In this document: piece by piece, positions 2,331 through 22,711 of the stretch
Numbering within the stretch: position 1 is the stretch's first letter
Layout of the letters: every line of letters starts with the position of its first letter
From: Pseudomonas helvetica
Lineage (GTDB): Bacteria > Pseudomonadota > Gammaproteobacteria > Pseudomonadales > Pseudomonadaceae
Direction: 5' to 3'
Length of the DNA stretch: 64,000 bases
NCBI RefSeq assembly: GCF_039908645.1
Contig: NZ_CP150917.1
Coordinates: 1,832,501 to 1,896,500 of the forward strand
Notes under the pieces: model-generated
Seen by the model: the letters and a program-made list of their open reading frames with translations, nothing else
What the model was told of the DNA's origin: nothing
The model's database searches: none
Position numbers and translations under genes: made by a program

Positions 2331-2401
2331 CTGTAGGAGCATGGCTTGCCAGCGATGGCGTCCGTGAGATCGCTATCGCCAGCAAGCTGTGCTCCTACAG
2401 G
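2331..2401. repeat. REP/BIME inverted pair (CTGTAGGAGC type)
   Basis: Two inverted copies of a Pseudomonas REP sequence: CTGTAGGAGCATGGCTTGCC on the left and a near reverse complement ending GTGCTCCTACAG on the right. It begins a few bases after the FimV-like stop codon and may protect the transcript 3' end. A second pair of the same family lies near 19058-19147. Confidence 0.8.
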
Positions 2402-2523
2402 TGTCGCGCAGCCATCAATTTTCGCAATACCTGCGATCAGTACGTCTGCCCAAGGCTCAGGTAGATCGAGCGGCAAAGGCGGCTATCATAGCGGCGCCAT
2501 CGAGTTCAGGAGTCCAGCACGCC

Positions 2524-2811
2524 ATGACCACGCACAAACCGGAAGTTGTCATCACTTACTGCACGCAATGCCAGTGGCTGTTGCGCGCCGCCTGGCTGGC
2601 CCAGGAGCTGCTCAGTACCTTCAGTGATGATCTGGGCAAAGTTTCACTGGTGCCGGGAACTGGCGGGGTGTTTTTCATTACCTGCGACGGGGTGCAGATC
2701 TGGGAACGCAAGGCCGATGGCGGCTTCCCGGAAGCCAAGGTGCTCAAGCAGCGGGTCCGGGATCAGATCGATCCCGACCGCGATCTCGGACACAACGATA
2801 GAACTCAGTGA
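2524..2811 (+). CDS. SelT/SelW/SelH (Rdx) family thioredoxin-fold protein
   Basis: A 95-residue protein with a single short thioredoxin-like domain. The redox motif is CTQC near residues 13-16, with cysteine where animal selenoproteins carry selenocysteine. Downstream segments VPGTGGVFFITCDGVQIWER and GGFPEAKVLKQRVRD match the Rdx family core. The physiological substrate of bacterial members is not known. ATG 2524 gives the normal family length; longer upstream frames lack family similarity. Its end overlaps the convergent EamA gene by 7 bases. Confidence 0.85.
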   Translation: MTTHKPEVVITYCTQCQWLLRAAWLAQELLSTFSDDLGKVSLVPGTGGVFFITCDGVQIWERKADGGFPEAKVLKQRVRDQIDPDRDLGHNDRTQ

Positions 2812-3698
2812 GAGGCGGCTTCGGCCGTCACGCTTTTCTTGCTTGAGCTGCCAGACAGACTGCTGGACAGCACAATCGCGATGATGATCAGCGCACCGCC
2901 AATCAACATCCGCAGTGTCGGATTCTCACCGAACAGCAGCCATGCGACGGTGATGCCGTAAACCGGCTCCAGGGCAAACACCACCGCGGCGGTGCGAGCC
3001 TTGATCACCGCCAGGCTAGCCACGAACAGGCTGTGGGCGACGCCGGTGCAGAACACCCCGAGCAGACCGATCCACAGCCAGTCGATGGCGCGCACCTCAC
3101 TCAAGCCCGGTGCTGCCACCGGCAACAGGCAGAGGGCGACCACTACGTTCTGACACAGCGCTGCCTGCACGGCGGGTATACGCCCGGAGCTGGCACGGTT
3201 GGTCAGCGACAGCAAGGCGAACAGCAGGCCCGAGCCCACCGCCCAGAGCAGACCGCTGGTGGCTTCGCTGGCGAGGTCGAAATCCGGCGTAACCAGCACC
3301 AGGCCGACGCTCACCAGCACCACCAGGAGGATTTCATTGGCGCGGATTCGCTCGCGGAAGATCAGGCCTTCAAGGATCACCGTGAACGCCGGAAAACTGG
3401 CAAAGCCCAGGGTTGCAATCGCCACGCCGGCAACTTTCACCGCAATGAAAAAACTCACCCAATGCCCGGCCAGCAACAGGCCGCTGAGGAGCAGGCGACG
3501 CCAGTCCACGGCTTCGAGTTTCTGCCAGCCAGTGCTGCTGGCGAAACGGGCAAAGAATGCCAGAGCGATCACCGCGAATGCCGCACGGCCAAAGACAATG
3601 ATGGCAGGGGAGGCCGCGGCGAGTTTGCCGAACACACCCGTCAGGCCAAACATCAATGCGCCGATATGCAGGGCGCCAAGGGCGGTACGCGGAGTCAT
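2805..3698 (-). CDS. EamA-type (DMT superfamily) inner-membrane transporter
   Basis: About 297 residues made almost entirely of ten hydrophobic segments arranged as two EamA repeats (about 10-135 and 150-285). DMT exporters move amino acids or other small metabolites out of the cytoplasm; the substrate cannot be read from the sequence. The start at 3698 (MTPRTALGAL) is chosen because AAGGATTGAA precedes it; a longer frame to 3767 lacks a ribosome site. The AraC regulator encoded immediately upstream on the same strand (ending at 3790) is a likely partner. Confidence 0.85.
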   Translation of the reverse strand: MTPRTALGALHIGALMFGLTGVFGKLAAASPAIIVFGRAAFAVIALAFFARFASSTGWQKLEAVDWRRLLLSGLLLAGHWVSFFIAVKVAGVAIATLGFASFPAFTVILEGLIFRERIRANEILLVVLVSVGLVLVTPDFDLASEATSGLLWAVGSGLLFALLSLTNRASSGRIPAVQAALCQNVVVALCLLPVAAPGLSEVRAIDWLWIGLLGVFCTGVAHSLFVASLAVIKARTAAVVFALEPVYGITVAWLLFGENPTLRMLIGGALIIIAIVLSSSLSGSSSKKSVTAEAASH

Positions 3699-3789
3699 TT
3701 CAATCCTTAATCCATAGAGGCAATGACGACATTGAACCGCGTGACGGCCTGATCTGTCTGTCGTCAAACTCGCGTTTTTTATCGTCAGC

Positions 3790-4548
3790 CTAGCGCTTGC
3801 CCGCCGTACGACGCAGTGCGCCCGGCGAGGCGCCGAACTCGCGCATCACCGCTGCGGCGAAGGCGCTCTGGGAGCCATAACCGACACGGCAGGCGACTTC
3901 GCCGATGGGCAGCGCGGATTCACGGAGCAACTTCACCGCGATATGCAGGCGGCGACTGCGGATGTAATCCATCGGCGTCTGTCCGCATTCAGCGACAAAG
4001 CGTGCGTGCAGACGTGCGCTGGACAGCCCGGCGATACGCGCCAGATCGGCGACTTGCAGCGGATAGGCGGCGTATTGGTCGATGTGCGCGTTGAGCGCGG
4101 CGTAAGGCAAGCGGCGCCCGGCGATGCTGCTTGGCGCGGCGTTGTTGAGGCTGGCGAGCAACAATACGGCGCCTTGCTGGGCGATCAGCGGGTCTGCGAC
4201 CGGGCTGCTCGCCAGCCAGCTCACCAGCTGGCTTTGCCCGGCATCCAGCGGCAAGCGTCCGGGGTTGTCGAGCAAGCGCCGACTGGCCTCGGCATGCTCG
4301 CCCAATGATTGCGAAACCCATTGGTCGCTCGGCACATCGAGCACCAGGCAGCGGCTGCCATTCGGGCTGCCGCAAGCGTGATGAGCACCTGCCGGTACGA
4401 CCACAAAACTCTGCTGCACCACCTGGCTGCCATGACCGCCGACCTCGAAGTCGAGCGCGCCCGACAGGCCGAACACCAGTTGCGCGTGGTCATGGCTGTG
4501 GACGATCAGGTCGTGGGTGTACTGGCGTAGCGTGAGGATCGGTCTCAT
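3790..4548 (-). CDS. AraC-family transcriptional regulator
   Basis: About 252 residues. The N-terminal half is a cupin-like sensor with HSHDHAQLVFG near residues 15-25, and the C-terminal 100 residues hold two helix-turn-helix motifs (LARIAGLSSARLHARFVAE and EVACRVGYGSQSAFAAAVMR). The start at 4548 (MRPILTLRQY) has an AGGAGA ribosome site. The next gene downstream on this strand is the EamA transporter, a common regulator-exporter pairing, so control of that transporter is inferred. The ligand is unknown. Confidence 0.85.
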   Translation of the reverse strand: MRPILTLRQYTHDLIVHSHDHAQLVFGLSGALDFEVGGHGSQVVQQSFVVVPAGAHHACGSPNGSRCLVLDVPSDQWVSQSLGEHAEASRRLLDNPGRLPLDAGQSQLVSWLASSPVADPLIAQQGAVLLLASLNNAAPSSIAGRRLPYAALNAHIDQYAAYPLQVADLARIAGLSSARLHARFVAECGQTPMDYIRSRRLHIAVKLLRESALPIGEVACRVGYGSQSAFAAAVMREFGASPGALRRTAGKR

Positions 4549-4682
4549 CGCAGTCTCCTGGGCAGACTCGCAGTCTACACCGGCCGCGCCTGGGTCCGGG
4601 TTGTCATCAGACTGCCGTATTTGTGTCATGGGCTATTAATCGCTGCGGTGCAAGCTTGCGAAAAATCTCGCAGAGGTTGCCC

Positions 4683-5498
4683 ATGACCAGCGCCGAACGT
4701 GCAAAACCCAGCCGTAAACAACGCGTGCGCACCTTGTGGATCTCCGATGTGCACCTCGGCACCCGGGATTGTCAGGCCGAGCATTTGTCACAGTTTCTCA
4801 AGGGCTATCAGGCTGACAAGATCTATCTGGTCGGCGACATCATCGATGGCTGGAAGCTGCGCAGCGGCATGTACTGGCCGCAGGCTCACACCAACGTCAT
4901 TCGCCGTTTGCTGACCATGAGCAAGCGCGGCACCGAGGTGATTTATATCACCGGCAACCACGACGAGTTTTTGCGGCGTTATTCGAAGCTGATCCTGGGC
5001 AATATTCAGTTGGTGGACGAGGCGGTCCACGTCACCGCGGATGGCCGGCACCTGTTGGTGATTCATGGCGATCAGTTCGATGTGATCACGCGTTATCACC
5101 GCTGGCTGGCGTTTCTCGGCGACTCGGCCTATGAGCTCACTCTGACCCTCAACCGCTGGCTCAACCACTGGCGTGCACGGTACGGCTACGGTTACTGGTC
5201 GTTGTCGGCGTACCTCAAGCACAAAGTCAAAACCGCGGTCAGCTTCATCAGCGATTTCGAAGAGGCCATCGCCCACGAGTGTGTCAAACGCGAGCTGCAC
5301 GGGGTGGTTTGCGGGCACATCCACCACGCGGAAATCCGCAAGGTCGGTGAGGTGGATTACCTCAATTGCGGAGATTGGGTGGAGTCGTGCACGGCCTTGA
5401 TCGAGCATTTGGACGGCACGATCGAGTTGTACCGGTTGGCGGATGCGCAGGCGCGCGAGGCACAACTCAAGGCCGTTAAGGTTGCTGAACCGGCTTGA
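4683..5498 (+). CDS. LpxH-like UDP-2,3-diacylglucosamine diphosphatase family metallophosphoesterase
   Basis: A 271-residue calcineurin-like phosphoesterase. Metal-binding motifs occur in order: DVHLGT, GDIIDGW, GNHDEF, HGDQFD and GHIHHA, which supply the usual two-metal site. The family includes LpxH, which cleaves UDP-2,3-diacylglucosamine in lipid A synthesis, but this subgroup is longer than LpxH and is often a second copy, so the substrate is uncertain. The start at 4683 (MTSAERAKPS) follows GAGGTTGCCC. A REP pair follows the stop codon. Confidence 0.8.
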   Translation: MTSAERAKPSRKQRVRTLWISDVHLGTRDCQAEHLSQFLKGYQADKIYLVGDIIDGWKLRSGMYWPQAHTNVIRRLLTMSKRGTEVIYITGNHDEFLRRYSKLILGNIQLVDEAVHVTADGRHLLVIHGDQFDVITRYHRWLAFLGDSAYELTLTLNRWLNHWRARYGYGYWSLSAYLKHKVKTAVSFISDFEEAIAHECVKRELHGVVCGHIHHAEIRKVGEVDYLNCGDWVESCTALIEHLDGTIELYRLADAQAREAQLKAVKVAEPA

Positions 5499-5517
5499 TC
5501 CGACAGGTTTAGCTTTT

Positions 5518-5659
5518 GTGGCGAGGGAGCTTGCTCCCGCTCGACCGCGAAGCGGTCGTAATCCGGCAATCGCGATCCATCCGAATACTCGCGGCGGCTG
5601 ACATCAGGGTCGCTTCGCCCGAGCGCGGACCGACCCGCGGGAGCAAGCTCCCTCGCCAC
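5518..5659. repeat. REP inverted pair (GTGGCGAGGGAGC type)
   Basis: The unit GTGGCGAGGGAGCTTGCTCC at the left edge is repeated in reverse complement at the right edge, with further small palindromes between. It occupies the space between the convergent phosphoesterase and HD-domain genes. The same family recurs at 25128/26609 (split by an IS) and at 30937-31067. Confidence 0.85.
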
Positions 5660-5674
5660 AGGTCCGCGGATATT

Positions 5675-6265
5675 TCAGACCGGTGCGTATTCTTCCATCG
5701 CTGCCATGTAGATCGAGTTTTTCGGCCGGGCAAACAGGCGTTCCATCATCGGTTCGAAGAAACTCAGCGGCAGGGTCTTGTAGTCTGGATCAAAGGCTGC
5801 CGCGTCATACCTGGCGCAGAACTCGAGGGTTTGCCGGTACTGCGGGTGTTCGCGAAACTGCTCGCGCAGGTGCCGGTCCATGCCCAGGTGATGGAAAAAA
5901 TAGTAGCCCTGGAAAATCCCGTGCTTTTCGACCATCCACAGGTTTTCAGGGCTGACGAATGGCTTGAGGATCGCTGCCGCAATGTCCGGGTGGTTGTAGG
6001 AGCCAAGGGTATCGCCAATGTCGTGGAGCAGCGCACACACCACGTATTCCTCATCCCGGCCATCGCGCCAGGCGCGGGTGGCGGTTTGCAGTGAGTGGGT
6101 CAGCCGATCGACCGGGAAACCGCCAAAATCACCCTCCAGCAGTTTCAGGTGCGCCACAATCCGTGTCGGCAATTGTTTGGCGTAGGCACTGAAGTCCGCG
6201 GCGATGATCGCCCAGTCTTCCTGCGTACCCTCCTTCATGTGGGTGAAACGGGCGTGCGCATTCAT
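5675..6265 (-). CDS. HD-domain metal-dependent phosphohydrolase family protein
   Basis: A 196-residue soluble protein. An HD signature is visible in ALLHDIGDTLGSYNH near residues 83-97, with an upstream histidine in THSLQTATRAW and a downstream HHLGM segment that may complete the metal site. HD proteins of this size hydrolyse nucleotides or other phosphorylated metabolites; the substrate here is unknown. The ATG at 6265 has AGAGGATAG upstream. The gene may be co-transcribed with the DUF962 gene about 100 bases upstream on the same strand. Confidence 0.75.
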   Translation of the reverse strand: MNAHARFTHMKEGTQEDWAIIAADFSAYAKQLPTRIVAHLKLLEGDFGGFPVDRLTHSLQTATRAWRDGRDEEYVVCALLHDIGDTLGSYNHPDIAAAILKPFVSPENLWMVEKHGIFQGYYFFHHLGMDRHLREQFREHPQYRQTLEFCARYDAAAFDPDYKTLPLSFFEPMMERLFARPKNSIYMAAMEEYAPV

Positions 6266-6364
6266 CAGCTATCCTCTTATTGTTTACGAAGGGACGTCGT
6301 GCAGTGTAGAGCTTGGATCCAATGCTGCACTGGCCAAGTGGGACGGCTTGATGGCCCGGCGAGC

Positions 6365-6676
6365 CTAGAAAGGCACTTTGCCGAGGATCATGTCGCGATA
6401 CATGATGAAGTCACCGAGCAGGCTGTAAAACGGATGCTGGAATGTCGCTGGCCGGTTTTTTTCAAAGAAAAAGTGTCCGACCCAGGCGAAGCTGTAGCCG
6501 GCCAGAGGCAGGGCCAGCAACAACAGCCAGGCACCTTTGCCGATAGCGAAGGCCAGGATGAAAAGCACCAGGCTGGTGCCGACAAAGTGCAGGCGTCGGC
6601 AGACACTGTTGCTGTGTTCGCTGAGGTAATACGGGTAAAACTCGGCGAAGCTGCTGAAACGTTTGATGTTTTCCAC
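6365..6676 (-). CDS. DUF962 (Mpo1-like) membrane protein
   Basis: About 103 residues. It begins ENIKRFSSFAEFYPYYLSEH, then has two or three hydrophobic segments (LVLFILAFAIG and WLLLLALPLAGYSFAWVGHF) and the conserved FFEKNRPATFQHPFYSLLGD region. The family includes yeast Mpo1, a dioxygenase acting on 2-hydroxy fatty acids; histidines in RLHFVGT, VGHFFFE and FQHPF are consistent with that fold. The GTG at 6676 gives the usual family length, but ATG codons at 6748 and 6757 would add about 27 residues and cannot be excluded. Confidence 0.75.
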   Translation of the reverse strand: MENIKRFSSFAEFYPYYLSEHSNSVCRRLHFVGTSLVLFILAFAIGKGAWLLLLALPLAGYSFAWVGHFFFEKNRPATFQHPFYSLLGDFIMYRDMILGKVPF

Positions 6677-6836
6677 GACTGCATTCTCTGTGGTTATTGT
6701 TCTGCCGAGCGGATGTTCTGCGGGCAGCTTATTTAAGTCTAGAGTCATCAGTGGCAACAGCCAGTGACCTTGGGCGCCACTTTAGTATCCTTCTGAAATT
6801 GGCCGTGATGCGCGGCACATCAAGTAAGAAAACGCC

Positions 6837-7898
6837 ATGAGCGAACGAACGACTTCTGCAAGCTGGGCGATGGGGATTGTCAAGGCACTGGAGATGGACG
6901 GCCTGGATTGCCGGGTCTTGTTCAAACAGCTGGGGCTCGACTACGCGGCGCTGAATGATCCGGATGCGCGCTTTCCTCAAGATTCGATGACGCGACTCTG
7001 GCAGCGTGCGGTAGAGCTGTCCGGCAACCCGGCAATCGGTCTGAACATGGGCAAGTTGGTCCGCCCGGCATCGTTTCATGTGGTCGGTTATGCCTTGATG
7101 TCGAGCCAGACCCTGGCGGAAGGTTTTCAGCGCCTGGTGCGTTATCAGCGGATCATCGCCGAAAGCGCCGACCTGAGTTTTCGCCTGTTACCCGAAGGGT
7201 ATGCACTGATTTTGACGGTGCATGGCGACCACCTGCCGCCCACCCGACAAAGTGCCGAAGCGTCACTCGCCTGTGCGCTGGGCTTGTGTGGCTGGCTGAC
7301 CGGGCGCACCTTGCAGCCACGCAAAGTGCTGATGCAGGGCGATCAACCCCAAGACCTCGAACCTTACAAATTTGCCTTTCATGCGCCGCTGGAGTTCAGC
7401 GCGCCTTATGACGCGCTGATTTTCGAACGGGCAGACATGGAAGCCCCGTTGCCGACTGCCAACGAGGCGATGGCGTTGTTGCACGACCGGTTTGCCGGCG
7501 AATACCTGGCGCGGTTTTCTGAAAGCCAGGTTACCCACAAGGCCCGGCAAGTGCTCTGTCGCCTACTGCCGCAAGGCGAGCCCAAGCGCGATACAGTGGC
7601 GCAAACCCTGCACTTGTCCCAGCGCACCTTGCAGCGACGCTTGCAGGAAGAGGGCACGAGTTTTCAGACGCTGCTCGACGACACGCGCCGCGAGTTGGCC
7701 GAGCAGTACCTGGCGCAACCGAACATGACCCTGCTGGAAACTGCCTATCTGTTGGGGTTCGCCGATCCGAGCAATTTCTTTCGGGCTTTTCGGCGCTGGT
7801 TCGATACCACGCCCGGCGAATACCGGACGCGGTTGATGGACGCGCCCAAAGAACTCAGTGACGCCAGAACGCCGGGATACACAGCACAAACACGGTAA
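6837..7898 (+). CDS. AraC-family regulator of the OruR/ArgR-like group
   Basis: A 353-residue protein: an N-terminal effector domain (about 20-210) of the arabinose-binding AraC subgroup and a C-terminal double helix-turn-helix (about 255-345, with LHLSQRTLQRRLQEEGTSFQ and AYLLGFADPSNFFRAFRRW). Members of this group regulate ornithine, acyl or lipid metabolism genes. It is transcribed away from the DUF962 gene across a gap of 80-160 bases. Its last 44 bases overlap the 3' end of trkH on the opposite strand, so the two genes end tail to tail inside one another. Confidence 0.85.
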   Translation: MSERTTSASWAMGIVKALEMDGLDCRVLFKQLGLDYAALNDPDARFPQDSMTRLWQRAVELSGNPAIGLNMGKLVRPASFHVVGYALMSSQTLAEGFQRLVRYQRIIAESADLSFRLLPEGYALILTVHGDHLPPTRQSAEASLACALGLCGWLTGRTLQPRKVLMQGDQPQDLEPYKFAFHAPLEFSAPYDALIFERADMEAPLPTANEAMALLHDRFAGEYLARFSESQVTHKARQVLCRLLPQGEPKRDTVAQTLHLSQRTLQRRLQEEGTSFQTLLDDTRRELAEQYLAQPNMTLLETAYLLGFADPSNFFRAFRRWFDTTPGEYRTRLMDAPKELSDARTPGYTAQTR

Positions 7899-17512: not shown

Positions 17513-17710
17513 GATTGAGGGGCGCCCAAAGATCCTTGCGCACCACCGGTCGGCGGAAAAACAATTAACTGACCGTTTATCCGCTAGTCTCTGATGCGCG
17601 AGCGGCGTCATGCGCGTATGATTCGCGACCCTTCGGCGATCCTTTCGCCCAAAGACCAGATTTCAAATCTTCAGGCCATGCCTGAACAGACCACACCGGG
17701 AGGTGCCCAG

Positions 17711-18994
17711 ATGAGTATCAACGACCAGAAAGACGACCAGGAAATCGGCCCAGCAGGCGAAAAACTGCAGAAAGTCCTCGCCCGTATCGGTGTCGGCTCG
17801 CGCCGCGACGTAGAAGCCTGGATCAGTCATGGCCGGATCAAGGTCAACGGCAAAGATGCCACCCTTGGCCTGCGAGTCGACCTGCACGACGCCATCACCA
17901 TCGATGGCAAGGTGATCAAGCGTGAAGAAGCGGCCGAATCGGTCCGCCGCGTGATCATGTACAACAAACCCGACGGCGAAATCTGCACCCGTGACGACCC
18001 GGAAGGCCGTCCGACCGTGTTCGACAAAATGCCGAAACCCAAAGAAGGCCGCTGGATCAACATCGGTCGTCTGGACATCAACACCACCGGTTTGCTGATG
18101 TTCACCACCGACGGTGAACTGGCCAACCGCCTGATGCACCCATCCTACGAAATGGACCGTGAGTACGCGGTACGTGTTCGTGGTGAAGTCGACGACGAAA
18201 TGATCGAGCGTCTGAAGGCTGGCGTCGTTCTCGAAGACGGCCCGGCGAAGTTCACCGACATCAAGCAGGCTCCAGGTGGCGAAGGTTTCAACCACTGGTA
18301 CCACTGCGTGGTGATGGAAGGTCGTAACCGTGAAGTTCGACGTCTGTGGGAATCCCAGGGGCTGGTGGTCAGCCGTCTGAAGCGCGTGCGTTTCGGTCCG
18401 GTGTTCCTCAACTCTGACCTGCCGATGGGCCGCTGGCGCGAAATGAGCCAGTACGAAGTCGACGTACTGAGTGCTGAAGTCGGTTTGACCCCGGTGGCTA
18501 TGCCGCAAATGAACGCCAAGAGCAAAGACAAGCTTGAGCGTATGCAGCGCAAGTCGTCGCGCCCGGTCGGCAAGAGCGAGCGCGTGCGGACCCTGCGTCC
18601 AGCGACTGGTGCTCCAGCGGCTGCTGGTCCGCGTCCAGCGCGCGAGCCGCAGATTGAAGGCGAGCGTCCGGCTCGCAAGCCGGCACCACGTCAGGACGGC
18701 GAGCGCGGTCCACGCACTCCGCGTCCGGCCAACGGTCGCACTGAACGTGGCGAAGGCCGCGGTGCTCCGTCCGGTGGTCGCAGCGATCGCGGTGCGCCGG
18801 CAGGTCGTGGTGAGTCGGGTCGCGGTACGCCAGTGGCAGACCGTCCGTCCGACACCAAGCGCCCGGCCAAGCCTGCGCCGAAAAAGCGTCCGGGCATCGT
18901 CCTGGTCGACCGTGATGCGCCATCGGGCAAGCGTCGCGGCGCACCGGCCGGTTCCGGTCAGCGTCCTGGCTTTGGTCGTCGCAAGCCGGAATAA
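17711..18994 (+). CDS. rluB: 23S rRNA pseudouridine synthase RluB with basic tail
   Basis: About 427 residues. An S4 RNA-binding domain (about 15-75, EKLQKVLARIGVGSRRDVE) precedes the RsuA/RluB/E/F catalytic domain, whose motif GRLDINTTGLLMFTTDG carries the catalytic aspartate. After about residue 260 comes a repetitive, highly basic tail of Arg, Gly, Pro and Ala. RluB makes the pseudouridine near position 2605 of 23S rRNA. ATG 17711 is chosen because GGGAGGTG stands at the right distance; an ATG at 17678 is possible. A strong terminator follows. Confidence 0.92.
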   Translation: MSINDQKDDQEIGPAGEKLQKVLARIGVGSRRDVEAWISHGRIKVNGKDATLGLRVDLHDAITIDGKVIKREEAAESVRRVIMYNKPDGEICTRDDPEGRPTVFDKMPKPKEGRWINIGRLDINTTGLLMFTTDGELANRLMHPSYEMDREYAVRVRGEVDDEMIERLKAGVVLEDGPAKFTDIKQAPGGEGFNHWYHCVVMEGRNREVRRLWESQGLVVSRLKRVRFGPVFLNSDLPMGRWREMSQYEVDVLSAEVGLTPVAMPQMNAKSKDKLERMQRKSSRPVGKSERVRTLRPATGAPAAAGPRPAREPQIEGERPARKPAPRQDGERGPRTPRPANGRTERGEGRGAPSGGRSDRGAPAGRGESGRGTPVADRPSDTKRPAKPAPKKRPGIVLVDRDAPSGKRRGAPAGSGQRPGFGRRKPE

Positions 18995-19010
18995 TCGGTA
19001 AGCGCTCCAT

Positions 19011-19048
19011 AAAAAACGCCAACCCTCGGGTTGGCGTTTTTTTTTTGC
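19011..19048 (+). terminator. rho-independent terminator of rluB
   Basis: AACGCCAACC and GGTTGGCGTT form a perfect stem around CTCG, followed by an uninterrupted run of ten T residues and preceded by an A run. It begins 17 bases after the rluB stop codon and may act on both strands. Confidence 0.92.
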
Positions 19049-19057
19049 CTCTTTGGA

Positions 19058-19147
19058 GCATCGCGGGCAAGCCTTGCTCCTACAGATTTACCTCCATTTT
19101 CAAGATCACCGCAAAACCTGTAGGAGCATGGCTTGCCCGCGATGACG
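19058..19147. repeat. REP/BIME inverted pair (TGTAGGAGC type)
   Basis: CATCGCGGGCAAGCCTTGCT followed by CCTACAG on the left, and CTGTAGGAGCATGGCTTGCC followed by CGCGATG on the right, are inverted copies about 35 bases apart. It is the same family as 2331-2401, and lies between the rluB terminator and the convergent aminopeptidase gene. Confidence 0.8.
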
Positions 19148-19172
19148 TCAGCCGCGTCACCACTGAACTCGC

Positions 19173-20135
19173 TTAGAACACAAACCGCCCATCAAACACC
19201 GGCTTGTCATCCAGCGCCAACACGCCGCTGGCGAAGATCAGGTCCAGGTGATGGCTGCCCTTGGCGCCACCGCCCAACCCCAGGTGGAGGCCGCAATGGC
19301 GCTCTTCGAAGCCGGCGTTGCGCGCATACAGGTCCTTGACGCCCTCGTTGGTGCCGATCCCCAACTCCTCGATGCGTCGGTTGGAAGGATTGGCATCCAG
19401 GTATTTGTTGAAGTCATGTTCCAGCCCCGGCACTTGCGTGGCGATTCGGCTGATGGTCGAGTTCTCGATCCACAATTCCAGCGGCGATTCGAGCACACCA
19501 TATTTGCGGGCGAAAGGAATGGTGCCGAGGAAGGTACCGACGAACTTTACCTGGCCATTGATGGCTTCGCTGTGGGTGGCGATCTCGCCGGGCGCCAGAT
19601 CGAAGTTGCCGACGCCGTTGATATTGGTCCACTTCTTGATGCTGCTCAGCGGTGTTTCAAAGTAAGAGCCATGTCGATCACTGAAGCTCAGGGTGGTGGC
19701 CTGGGACATGCGCTGGATCAGATGGCTGTTGAGCCCGGCGATACGTTGCGGCGTGACACTGAAGGTGTCGTAGAAGTAATCGCCGTAATCCTTGAACAGC
19801 AGCGACTTCTTCCAGTGGTCGGCCATGACGCTTTGCAGGGCGCGAACAAACTCGGGGCCGTCCGGGCGCGGGTTGGGCAGGGTCGACGAGTCATAGAAGA
19901 AAATGTACAGATCGCAGTCGGCAATCGCCTGCGCCAGGGTTTGGGTTGGTTCGAGGTCCAGGCGCATGGCGCTGAAGTGAAATGGCTCGTTGGTCGCTTG
20001 CTCGATGATCGCGCCGGTCAACGCCTCGTAAGGTTGCGTATGCCCAAGCAAGACCTTGGCCGGACGTACGCCAACGAGGGCAGGGTGGTGTTCGAGGTAG
20101 TAAAGGAAATGCGAAATGGCGCGGAGTCTTTCCAT
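19173..20135 (-). CDS. M29-type (leucyl) aminopeptidase-like protein, short form
   Basis: A 320-residue protein whose C-terminal half reads like the catalytic domain of M29 aminopeptidases (AmpS/AmpT). APGEIATHSEAINGQVKF supplies the first glutamate, RRIEELGIGTNEGVKD the second, and GLHLGLGGGAKGSHHLDLIF the histidines and the H-x-D pair, so all expected metal ligands appear present. The N-terminal domain is shorter than in AmpT (about 410 residues in full). M29 enzymes remove N-terminal residues using Co/Zn. A 45-codon peptide gene lies 67 bases upstream on the same strand with a strong hairpin between. The ATG at 20135 has AGGGAGGA upstream. A role in processing that peptide is inferred, not shown. 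Confidence 0.65.
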   Translation of the reverse strand: MERLRAISHFLYYLEHHPALVGVRPAKVLLGHTQPYEALTGAIIEQATNEPFHFSAMRLDLEPTQTLAQAIADCDLYIFFYDSSTLPNPRPDGPEFVRALQSVMADHWKKSLLFKDYGDYFYDTFSVTPQRIAGLNSHLIQRMSQATTLSFSDRHGSYFETPLSSIKKWTNINGVGNFDLAPGEIATHSEAINGQVKFVGTFLGTIPFARKYGVLESPLELWIENSTISRIATQVPGLEHDFNKYLDANPSNRRIEELGIGTNEGVKDLYARNAGFEERHCGLHLGLGGGAKGSHHLDLIFASGVLALDDKPVFDGRFVF

Positions 20136-20163
20136 GAATCCTCCCTGACAGTCAGCGAATAGT

Positions 20164-20194
20164 GGCAGGTACGACCGGCCGGCACGTACCTGCC
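20164..20194 (-). promoter_or_regulatory. intercistronic hairpin between the peptide gene and the aminopeptidase gene
   Basis: GGCAGGTACG and CGTACCTGCC form a perfect ten-base stem with an 11-base loop that is itself palindromic (CCGGCCGG). It starts 9 bases after the peptide stop codon and ends before the aminopeptidase ribosome site. There is no T-run. Such structures usually stabilise the upstream message or partly stop transcription so that a small upstream product is made in excess. Confidence 0.6.
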
Positions 20195-20202
20195 TGGATA
20201 TC

Positions 20203-20340
20203 TTACAAAGGCCACATCGCCGTGCCGAACGGAACGACCGCGTCGGCTTGCATCATTTCAACAGCAGCGTCATGGGTCGGCGCTTCAAACCACTCGTCCA
20301 GTTGCAGTTCGGTTTCCAGGTCTTTATTCATTGCTTGCAT
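20203..20340 (-). CDS. 45-residue peptide encoded ahead of the M29-like aminopeptidase (possible precursor peptide)
   Basis: Reading from ATG 20340, preceded by AGGGAGA at normal spacing, the frame encodes 45 residues and stops with TAA. It starts MQAMNKDLETELQLDEWFEA, continues with PTHDAAVEMMQADAVV and ends PFGTAMWPL. The peptide is acidic with no signal peptide, membrane segment or cysteine, and its last residues are hydrophobic and aromatic. It looks like the leader-plus-core layout of ribosomal peptide precursors, though a small regulatory subunit is also possible. A very AT-rich stretch upstream probably holds its promoter. The family is not recognised. Confidence 0.6.
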   Translation of the reverse strand: MQAMNKDLETELQLDEWFEAPTHDAAVEMMQADAVVPFGTAMWPL

Positions 20341-20399
20341 AGTGAATCTCCCTGATAGCTTTAAGGTTGAATGACGGTGCTGTTTTCAGTGCATGAATA

Positions 20400-20600
20400 A
20401 ATCATTGCGACTGAAAAAACTGCCGCTTACTTGCGGGACTTCACGGTCTGGCAAGTGGTTGGAAACCTAGTCCAGTACTTTTTAAAATACAATTTAAAAT
20501 TTAAATTCAATTGCGGTGAAATTTTTATTCCGTTTTTTGTTGTCTGTTTTTTCAATTAAAAACAAAACGCTAACTCGGTCTCATCGGCAGGAATGGGGCT
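20400..20600. other. AT-rich intergenic stretch, likely promoter region for the peptide/aminopeptidase pair
   Basis: Base composition falls sharply here, with runs such as TTTTAAAATACAATTTAAAA and AAATTTAAATT around 20480-20510 and T-rich DNA to about 20580. It lies upstream of the minus-strand peptide gene. No coding frame is convincing. The composition contrasts with the G+C-rich neighbours and could mark a strong promoter, a silencer-protein binding region or acquired DNA. Confidence 0.5.
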
Positions 20601-20851
20601 GCTGTCAATTTGCAGTCGGCCTCCAGAAAGATCTGTTGTGGAAAAAATACGTTACGCCTCGTAAAGGAAGCTTTACGAAAAGCCGCGTTCTGCGCCATGG
20701 ATTCGGGTTGCAGTGAGGGCTGTAAGGAAAAGCTTCCGGTTGGCGCTCGGTCATACGGTTTGCAGGGCTCTGGTCCGCTTGTTTCAAGACGGTTTCAGCG
20801 GTGAGATGCGCCCATGCCTGTCGTGCAGGTGCATAACAAGAAGGAGGCGCA

Positions 20852-20998
20852 ATGAACGCCGTGAGTCATCTCCATCTCTCTTCGAGGGACGATTTTTCCA
20901 TCGTCCCCGTCAACGACCCGCAAAGGTCTGAGCCTTTTTTTGCAGCCGTCCGGGCTCCCCGAGGCGGACACAGGCAATCCCGGCAAACGACACGCTGA
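20852..20998 (+). CDS. possible 48-residue peptide with perfect ribosome site
   Basis: ATG 20852 is preceded by AAGGAGG at ideal spacing and opens a 48-codon frame ending at TGA 20996-20998. It starts MNAVSHLHLSSRDDFSIV and ends in an Arg/Gln/Gly-rich stretch. No family is recognised. The frame contains an 8-base-pair hairpin (20886-20907) and a T7 run (20935-20941) after small inverted repeats, so the region may be an RNA element with a translated leader rather than a stable protein gene. Confidence 0.4.
   Translation: MNAVSHLHLSSRDDFSIVPVNDPQRSEPFFAAVRAPRGGHRQSRQTTR
20886..20907 (+). promoter_or_regulatory. hairpin inside the small ORF upstream of the permease
   Basis: GGGACGAT and ATCGTCCC form a perfect stem around TTTTCC. 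Shortly after it, GACC-GGTC and AAGG-CCTT short inverted repeats lead into a run of seven T residues at 20935-20941, which resembles a weak intrinsic terminator on the plus strand. This could be the end of an upstream small transcript or an attenuator. Confidence 0.4.
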
Positions 20999-21229: not shown

Positions 21230-21289
21230 TCCTGATCCGAGCGGCAACGTCTTAACGAACATTATCAAACCTTGCGTGAGACCCTTTTC

Positions 21290-22711
21290 ATGAGTGGACA
21301 AAACTCGCATTCAGGTACGCTTCAACGCGGCCTGAAAAATCGCCATATTCAACTGATCGCCCTCGGTGGCGCGATCGGTACCGGATTGTTCCTGGGCTCT
21401 GCCGGTGTGCTGAAATCGGCCGGCCCGTCGATGATTCTCGGTTACGCAATCTGTGGCTTCATCGCTTTCATGATCATGCGCCAACTGGGCGAAATGATCG
21501 TTGAAGAGCCGGTGGCCGGCTCGTTCAGCCACTTTGCGCACAAGTACTGGGGCGGTTTCGCCGGCTTCCTGTCGGGCTGGAACTGCTGGATCCTGTACAT
21601 CCTGGTGGGCATGTCGGAACTGACTGCGGTCGGCAAATACGTGCACTACTGGTGGCCGGATGTCCCGACCTGGGCCTCGGCTGCAGTGTTCTTCGTGATG
21701 ATCAATGCGATCAACCTGGCTAACGTCAAAGTCTTTGGCGAAGCTGAGTTCTGGTTTGCGATCATCAAGGTCGTGGCGATCGTCGGCATGATTGCCCTGG
21801 GCAGCTATCTGCTGGTCAGCGGCCATGGCGGCCCGCAAGCCTCGGTGAGCAACCTGTGGGAACACGGTGGGTTCTTCCCGAATGGCGTCAGTGGTCTGGT
21901 GATGGCCATGGCGATCATCATGTTCTCCTTCGGCGGCCTGGAAATGCTCGGTTTCACCGCAGCAGAAGCCGACAAGCCGAAAACCGTGATCCCGAAAGCC
22001 ATCAATCAGGTGATCTACCGGATCCTGATTTTCTACATCGGCGCCCTGGTGGTTCTGCTGTCGCTGACTCCGTGGGACAGCTTGCTGGTGAGCCTGAATG
22101 CGTCCGGCGATGCCTATAGTGGCAGCCCGTTCGTTCAGGTGTTCTCGATGCTGGGCAGCAAGACCGCGGCGCACATCCTTAACTTCGTGGTGCTGACTGC
22201 TGCGCTGTCGGTGTACAACAGCGGCACCTACTGCAACAGCCGCATGTTGCTGGGCATGGCTGAACAGGGCGACGCCCCGAAAGGCCTGGCGAAGATCGAC
22301 AAGCGCGGCGTGCCGGTGCGTTCGATCCTGGCCTCGGCCGCGGTAACGTTCGTTGCGGTGGTGATGAACTACCTGATCCCGCAGCACGCGCTGGAACTGC
22401 TGATGTCGCTGGTGGTTGCAACGCTGGTGATCAACTGGGCGATGATCAGTTTCTCGCACTTCAAGTTCCGCCAGCACATGAACCGCACCAAACAAACGCC
22501 GTTGTTCAAGGCGCTGTGGTACCCGTACGGCAACTACATCTGCCTGGCGTTCGTGGCCTTTATCCTGTGCATCATGCTGATGATCCCGGGTATCCAGATC
22601 TCGGTCTACGCGATTCCGGTGTGGGTCCTGTTCATGTGGGTCTGCTACAACATCAAGAACAAACGCAGCGCTCAGCACGCGTTGAATGCTGCGGCTTCTG
22701 CAGTGAAGTAA
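21290..22711 (+). CDS. aromatic amino acid permease (AroP/PheP type, APC superfamily)
   Basis: A 473-residue transporter with 12 membrane helices. The AAT-family start is LQRGLKNRHIQLIALGGAIG followed by TGLFLGSAGV; other conserved parts are GEMIVEEPVAGSFSHFAHKY, the NCWILYILVGMSELTAVGKY segment and FSFGGLEMLGFTAAEADKP. These match AroP/PheP-like proton-coupled importers of Phe, Tyr and Trp better than basic or GABA permeases. ATG 21290 has no strong ribosome site nearby. The long 5' leader with a Trp-containing short ORF suggests regulation by aromatic amino acid supply. A terminator follows. Confidence 0.85.
   Translation: MSGQNSHSGTLQRGLKNRHIQLIALGGAIGTGLFLGSAGVLKSAGPSMILGYAICGFIAFMIMRQLGEMIVEEPVAGSFSHFAHKYWGGFAGFLSGWNCWILYILVGMSELTAVGKYVHYWWPDVPTWASAAVFFVMINAINLANVKVFGEAEFWFAIIKVVAIVGMIALGSYLLVSGHGGPQASVSNLWEHGGFFPNGVSGLVMAMAIIMFSFGGLEMLGFTAAEADKPKTVIPKAINQVIYRILIFYIGALVVLLSLTPWDSLLVSLNASGDAYSGSPFVQVFSMLGSKTAAHILNFVVLTAALSVYNSGTYCNSRMLLGMAEQGDAPKGLAKIDKRGVPVRSILASAAVTFVAVVMNYLIPQHALELLMSLVVATLVINWAMISFSHFKFRQHMNRTKQTPLFKALWYPYGNYICLAFVAFILCIMLMIPGIQISVYAIPVWVLFMWVCYNIKNKRSAQHALNAAASAVK

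Follow-up and report, generated by a model that had tools for sequence, protein, structure and literature searches.

A co-inherited peptide and CgnB-like protein in Pseudomonas, probably a minimal crocagin-like RiPP-type unit

The window analysed here, a stretch of 64,000 nt, covers positions 1832501-1896500 of the one-contig, 6.44 Mb genome of Pseudomonas helvetica (NZ_CP150917.1). On its minus strand lies an open reading frame (ORF) of 45 codons (20203-20340), which encodes a small acidic peptide, followed by an ORF of 320 codons (19173-20135). We found that the peptide and the protein are a strict co-inherited pair, and the two genes probably form a minimal crocagin-like system of the ribosomally synthesised and post-translationally modified peptide (RiPP) type, consisting of a precursor and a CgnB-like metalloprotein, with no linked oxygenase in Pseudomonas. 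An earlier note on this DNA had read the pair as a peptide precursor with a dedicated peptidase. Its precursor half is well supported by the co-inheritance, the conserved peptide ends, the purifying selection and the fact that CgnB and CgnE are RiPP proteins; the peptidase half is taken up below.

A conserved peptide gene inherited with its protein gene

The 45-codon ORF is a real gene. It is preceded by a Shine-Dalgarno-like AGGGAG (20348-20353, minus strand) 7 nt before its ATG, and GGAG stands there in 22 aligned upstream regions; both ORFs of the unit lie where the earlier note had placed them. The ratio of non-synonymous to synonymous substitution rates (dN/dS) was 0.081 over 2,842 pairs of Pseudomonas 45-codon copies, a summary rather than a test, as the pairs are not independent. 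By part, it was 0.226 for residues 1-13 and 0.046 for residues 14-45. Over similarly non-independent pairs, the values were 0.071 for the protein (300 pairs) and 0.103 for the 40-codon peptide of the Burkholderia-type family (449 pairs). As a control, the 16 upstream ORFs of at least 30 amino acids were matched against eight loci. At the three most remote of these (L039, L176 and L170) only the peptide ORF and its antisense ORFs had matches; in the five Pseudomonas loci other upstream ORFs matched as well, because there the DNA itself is similar. Together, dN/dS and this control rule out a chance ORF.

We then compared 62 distinct peptides from 168 loci (several loci per genome), collected with a pattern that required F(A/G)TAxW. 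L14, W17, H23, M29, M30, A34, F38, T40, A41 and W43 were the same in all 62, although for F38, T40, A41 and W43 this is partly built in by the collecting pattern. V27 was replaced by Ile in 4 of the 62 and P37 by Ala in one, and a peptide outside this set (genome G661), which ends in VPVGTAMWPI, differs by changes of His23 to Phe, Met29 to Ile and Phe38 to Val. The acidic character (calculated pI 4.05) and the PFGTAMWPL end, which is near-invariant, agree with the earlier description. The C-terminal PF(G/A)TAxW tail is conserved to the same degree as the putative leader. Many antimicrobial RiPP precursors have a variable core, in contrast to the window peptide, which is near-invariant across species.

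Co-inheritance was examined in 249 Pseudomonas genomes, one per species, the scans for the protein and for the peptide agreeing in the number of genomes and in their handles. The protein was present in 91; the peptide profile matched 90, all of them protein-bearing, and none of the other 158. The sole protein genome lacking the peptide, G047, keeps only the last 30 protein residues, its sequence fits a deletion that removed the peptide too, and no peptide was found elsewhere in it at E ≤ 1. In the Burkholderia-type family (249 genomes; a family name deduced from L039-L041, which are named records), the short protein (E < 1e-100) occurred in 26 genomes and the peptide in the identical 26, with 29 copies of each, since three genomes have two copies of both; the protein search gave 32 matches, and the remaining six, at E 9.9e-19 to 8.8e-4, are distant homologues that lack this peptide. 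In a further family, of gammaproteobacteria (f27), the protein was found in 4 of 149 genomes and the peptide in three of those four, the protein gene of the fourth (G551) running to the contig end. In G661 the order is reversed, with the peptide gene about 275 bp downstream of the protein gene, and hence the link within the pair is independent of one fixed arrangement. A phylum-wide sample of 398 genomes contained a close copy in seven and a distant copy in one. The best 80 of 223 relatives from a contig scan were all Pseudomonas by title and all had the peptide upstream; the nearest named relative found for the protein is from P. fluorescens FW300-N2E3 (98% identity).

In summary, the precursor-like peptide is encoded beside the candidate protein and inherited with it, as would be expected of a RiPP unit, and the conservation of both ends beside the protein across genomes, under purifying selection, is what the earlier note had predicted for a precursor or a subunit. 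A few protein copies are damaged: at L044/L130 (Pseudomonas sp. TH15) the protein frame ends early and the peptide beside it is intact, and the copy at L197 (G1050) is heavily decayed.

The protein and its relation to CgnB, M29 aminopeptidases and NicX

Neither the window peptide nor the protein matched any Pfam or NCBIfam family at E ≤ 1. A structural model of modest confidence gives the protein the fold shared by M29 aminopeptidases, the dioxygenase NicX and the crocagin protein CgnB, so that the earlier suggestion of an M29-type fold holds at that level. CgnB and CgnE (PDB 6zsv and 6zsu) likewise have no Pfam match and an M29-like fold, from which much of the N-terminal dimer interface is missing; no aminopeptidase activity was observed for them (PMC10070186). 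CgnB holds two Zn through E161, E252, E274, H280, H291 and D293; CgnE lacks two of these, and the residues of the dinuclear site are intact in single-copy members of the family (PMC10070186). The putative metal ligands of the window protein, E184, E257, E278, H284, H296 and D298, are invariant in 9 of 9 diverse aligned rows and in 80 of 80 Pseudomonas rows and correspond, judged by order and spacing, to the full hexad of CgnB, as in those single-copy members. Since the sequence profile reaches CgnB and CgnE weakly, the link to them rests on the fold, the ligand pattern and a shared motif.

The spacing of the ligands also separates the window protein from the aminopeptidases. The third Glu and the following His are 6 residues apart both in the window protein and in CgnB; the two metal His are 12 residues apart in the window protein and 11 in CgnB, compared with 33 in an M29 enzyme whose catalytic set is EEHYHD (PMC7023490). 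The window protein shares with CgnB a short loop between these His that holds no Tyr, and Tyr is absent from it in all 170 short-family loci with the motif, the window included; the residue at His+7 in four short rows is A, E, A and Q. Compared with the M29 aminopeptidases AmpT (2ayi), AmpS (1zjc) and PepS (4ics), with which it has the fold and the Glu/His/Asp ligands in common, the window protein thus lacks the catalytic Tyr and the long loop, and it has a dedicated peptide partner. It is about 80-90 residues shorter (320 residues against 397-413 in M29 entries, a comparison of length only), and Pfam Peptidase_M29 did not match it at E ≤ 1. Hence, of the 320-residue M29-type enzyme in the earlier note, the fold, the ligands and the shorter chain stand, and the catalytic Tyr and the Pfam match are missing, which together with the CgnB-like ligand spacing leaves the dedicated peptidase a weak proposal. 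This reasoning is sound for the window protein and less strong for the long homologues, because in 10 long-homologue loci the His-His loop (19-23 residues) does hold a Tyr, although not at His+7 in the five checked. Among distant homologues, L183 passes the Pfam M29 cut-off (29.6 bits, E 4e-7, cut-off 27) and L181 lies below it (19.4 bits).

The best overall fold score was to NicX, a 2,5-dihydroxypyridine dioxygenase (7cn3, 7cup) of similar length (347-349 residues), which has an HxD in common with the window protein; the metal-site loops of the model are of low confidence. NicX differs in its reported Fe ligands (His265, Ser302, His318 and Asp320) and in its substrate, a free small molecule (PMC7910607).

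A minimal crocagin-like unit and the alternatives

In crocagin biosynthesis, CgnB and CgnE bind the precursor CgnA, the core of which is Ile-Tyr-Trp, and CgnB is proposed to carry out a metal-dependent elimination after hydroxylation of the core by the dioxygenase CgnC (PMC10070186). The window unit likewise has a short precursor ORF adjacent to the protein gene, with a Trp near the C terminus. It differs in that the Pseudomonas units have no linked alpha-ketoglutarate (alphaKG) dioxygenase of the CgnC type, CgnD or CgnL, in that each unit has a single such protein where crocagin has both B and E, and in its near-invariant precursor. Window-family peptides end in PF(G/A)TAxW(P/A) plus 0-1 residue and crocagin precursors in xYW; a crocagin-type C-terminal Tyr-Trp is thus absent, although Trp43 is invariant with one or two residues after it, and the core Tyr/Trp pattern was reported for two-copy clusters (PMC10070186).

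From the observed genes, their co-inheritance and selection, the covarying hairpin described below and the ligand residues, together with a fold family taken from a modest model, we propose the following scheme. The product of the small ORF would be a precursor, putatively divided into an acidic leader (...ELQLDEWFEAPTHDAAVEMMQADAVV) and, at the C-terminal end, a short core of fixed sequence around PFGTAMW. The second ORF would encode a protein of the M29/NicX fold that belongs to the CgnB/CgnE-like branch and keeps a full set of two-metal ligands, with the metal sites presumably occupied. This protein may bind the acidic leader and present or modify the core PF(G/A)TA(M/L)W, with Trp43 and Thr40, both invariant, or their surroundings as the likeliest site. 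Enzymes encoded elsewhere (an oxygenase, a protease and an exporter) may take part, and a fixed small product would result. Given the lack of a linked oxygenase, the metalloprotein either works alone or relies on a partner from elsewhere in the genome; one candidate oxygenase partner, a 2-oxoglutarate (2OG) oxygenase, was looked for in 34 genomes, with a negative outcome. In crocagin, CgnB is proposed to remove water from the Tyr whose C-beta CgnC has hydroxylated, followed by addition of the Trp indole (PMC10070186). Thr40 already has a beta-hydroxyl, three residues before Trp43, so that direct dehydration by the CgnB-like protein is conceivable. By analogy, this could trigger ring closure by Trp43, and a single precursor and a single enzyme, with no oxygenase, would then give an indole-bridged peptide; we regard this as a long shot.

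Several observations weigh against the crocagin-like assignment. The AlphaFold2 model has a mean predicted local distance difference test score of 68.4 and a predicted template modelling score of 0.50 and is weakest around the metal site; a second model (80 rows) was less confident. Not only NicX but also M29 scored above CgnB as a fold match, and the sequence profile matches to 6zsv (E 0.41) and 6zsu (E 0.79) are not significant and cover the C-terminal motif alone. The leader of CgnA is basic and its C terminus is Tyr-Trp (PMC10070186), in contrast to the acidic window peptide with no Tyr before its Trp. Pfam shows neither an oxygenase nor a protease among the products of the five neighbouring window genes, and the major facilitator superfamily (MFS) transporter, flavin reductase and glucose-methanol-choline (GMC) oxidoreductase within 4 kb of the Burkholderia arboris unit L039 belong to other transcription units and are not common to the other lineages.

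The same features allow other readings. The peptide could stay unmodified as a permanent small subunit, activator or inhibitor of a two-subunit metalloenzyme that acts on another substrate, a reading that gains from the strong conservation from residue 14 onward, beyond the core, and from the equal copy numbers in the Burkholderia-type family (29:29). We consider it unlikely, since the PF(G/A)TAxW tail is no less conserved than the putative leader, peptide-modifying enzymes and different short ORFs lie beside distant homologues, and CgnB and CgnE are reported to bind a precursor (PMC10070186). It is quite improbable that the protein is a genuine M29-type hydrolase and trims or degrades this one peptide, itself perhaps a signal, an inhibitor or a protease-activated regulator: the slightly better fold match to M29 than to CgnB, the retained Glu, His and Asp ligands, the Pfam match of L183 and the Tyr somewhere in the loop of the long homologues speak for it, and they are set against the Tyr-less loop of all 170 short-family loci with the motif, which falls about 20 residues short of that in the M29 enzyme (PMC7023490), the missing Pfam match of the window protein itself and the lack of observed aminopeptidase activity in CgnB, which has the same ligand set (PMC10070186). 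As a special case of the favoured crocagin-like reading, the protein could be an Fe(II) dioxygenase resembling NicX and oxidise the core Trp with no need for a separate oxygenase. The top fold score of NicX fits this idea, which is nonetheless doubtful, because the window family keeps the three Glu of CgnB and NicX binds Fe through His, Ser, His and Asp (PMC7910607).

The CgnB/CgnE protein family is already known (its founding paper dates from 2023). In the literature searched, we found no strict two-gene unit whose acidic precursor is near-invariant and which lacks a linked oxygenase, although the supplementary mining list of the crocagin paper may contain members; none of the papers searched contained any of five core motif strings, and the available text of PMC10070186 does not describe this family. 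The pfl/pos RiPP clusters of Pseudomonas likewise combine a precursor with dedicated modifying enzymes, among them a protein of the alphaKG-HExxH type that also occurs beside the distant homologue L181, but their precursor (consecutive Gln, ARMD) and enzymes are unrelated, and no CgnB-like protein is described in the parts of that paper available (PMC12636437). If the window unit is a RiPP unit, it is a common one, given its presence in 90 of 249 Pseudomonas and 26 of 249 Burkholderia-type genomes, and, as it has none of the marker enzymes on which cluster-finding tools usually rely, it could be overlooked by them. Its near-invariant core would suggest that the product is fixed and its role conserved, as for pyrroloquinoline quinone, and would speak against an arms-race antibiotic. 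With two genes only, it would also be convenient for studying the role of CgnB-like M29-fold proteins, which the crocagin paper leaves open (PMC10070186).

Intercistronic hairpin, upstream region and gene neighbourhoods

Between the two genes, a perfect 10-bp inverted repeat forms a stem-loop on the minus strand (20164-20194, arms 20164-20173 and 20185-20194); the earlier note had described it correctly except that it begins 8 and not 9 nt past the peptide stop. The 67-nt intercistronic RNA folds at -30.7 kcal/mol, compared with a shuffled mean of -20.6 (z -3.1; 1 of 200 shuffles was as good). In 22 distinct aligned Pseudomonas intercistronic regions, one 11-bp helix pairs in 92.5% of 239 cells and slid controls in 33-47%, a comparison in which the helix has an advantage, as its structure was taken from these 22 sequences themselves. 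The helix covaries: 49 cells were changed on both sides against a shuffled mean of 15.2 (0 of 500 shuffles as high), and the covariation score was 0.538 against 0.230, while two of five measures (pairs with a double change and number of pair types) were not above the shuffles. Differently spelled hairpins were found in 18 of the 19 representative loci that were folded, among them both Burkholderia-type units and two f27 genera, the exception being L174, where the chosen start leaves 17 nt. A T run follows the hairpin in some loci (L176, L172) and is absent after others, so that attenuation and RNA processing are both possible. The hairpin may set how much precursor is made relative to protein, through attenuation, processing or protection of the 3′ end; the hairpins fit, but do not prove, the excess of precursor over protein that the earlier note had proposed. 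In Rfam, 18900-20900 gave no match above the gathering threshold, the five listed all lying below it.

The protein ORF has its own Shine-Dalgarno-like sequence, AGGGAGG (20140-20146, minus strand), 4 nt before the ATG. Upstream of the peptide gene, a conserved block at 20430-20490 (minus strand) comprises CTAGGTTT and a CTTGC...GCAAG inverted repeat; its consensus letters occur in 70% or more of the 22 Pseudomonas upstream regions that were aligned. It is possibly the promoter and 5′ leader; a simple sigma-70 scan gave no minus-strand match in 19000-20700.

By Pfam, the plus-strand genes on either side of the unit encode a pseudouridine synthase (17594-18994) and an amino-acid permease (21272-22711), and the other three of the five neighbours are ScpB, an RF-1-domain protein and an MFS transporter; the earlier statement that no classical modifying enzyme is adjacent is thus confirmed for these five. 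The five neighbours of L039 also include a GNAT protein and an AraC-type regulator. In an all-against-all comparison of 18 neighbourhoods, no partner-like gene besides the CgnB-like gene was common to the Pseudomonas and Burkholderia units. The 2OG oxygenase mentioned above was seen beside L172 alone. Its homologues occur in 11 of the 34 genomes (not in G000), both unit-bearing (G005, G019, G050 and G074) and unit-lacking (G002 and G016) Pseudomonas among them. It does not track the unit and was therefore not adopted as the missing CgnC. Glycosyltransferases and decarboxylases occur in crocagin-like clusters (PMC10070186). A protein with tetratricopeptide repeats and a glycosyltransferase family 9 (GT9)-like part lies directly downstream in 5 of 5 units whose peptide ends in IPFATALWA (L172, L174, L175, L176 and G1024:C3:515116-517835; five genomes, three genera). 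The copies are 57-100% identical, and the Pfam GT9 match is weak (one of four just over the cut-off, 22.2 against 22 bits). This putative glycosyltransferase is limited to that subtype, with no match at E ≤ 1e-6 in 24 Pseudomonas genomes, and was rejected as a general partner. A role of the unit in anti-phage defence was likewise rejected, as PADLOC gave no match at E ≤ 0.1.

Longer homologues are 22-28% identical to the window protein, and recognisable peptide-modifying enzymes adjoin some of them. At L182 (G884, 2366-6992), an MFS-like protein (33.1 bits, cut-off 33.4), a radical S-adenosylmethionine/SPASM protein, a short ORF ending in DLDWICNFGC, the CgnB-like protein and a flavoprotein lie together. 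The radical enzyme and the flavoprotein are above their Pfam cut-offs; the best NCBIfam match of the former is a RiPP maturase (E 5.7e-44), and the latter matches CoaBC and then the RiPP decarboxylase CypD (E 1.7e-6), all below cut-off. At L181 (G649, 4969-7003), the CgnB-like protein is beside a hydroxylase-like protein of the alphaKG-HExxH type (39.8 bits, cut-off 40), with a short ORF upstream. At L042 (5350-9491 in G050, which carries the two-gene unit too), the CgnB-like gene is preceded by a short ORF, and its neighbours are, we assume, cupin-like, aldolase-like and dehydrogenase-like genes. L043 and L183 have no recognisable peptide-modifying enzyme among the adjacent genes. A short ORF precedes each of these five long homologues, which suggests that such ORFs may be precursors; conservation was seen between the near-identical L167 and L168 alone. 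A tblastn search of plasmids with two long homologues returned two records named aminopeptidase and the Burkholderia units already found. In the window, a 31-nt inverted repeat (94% complementary, 19059-19144) lies just past the 3′ end of the protein gene, which we take to be an element like the repetitive extragenic palindromes.
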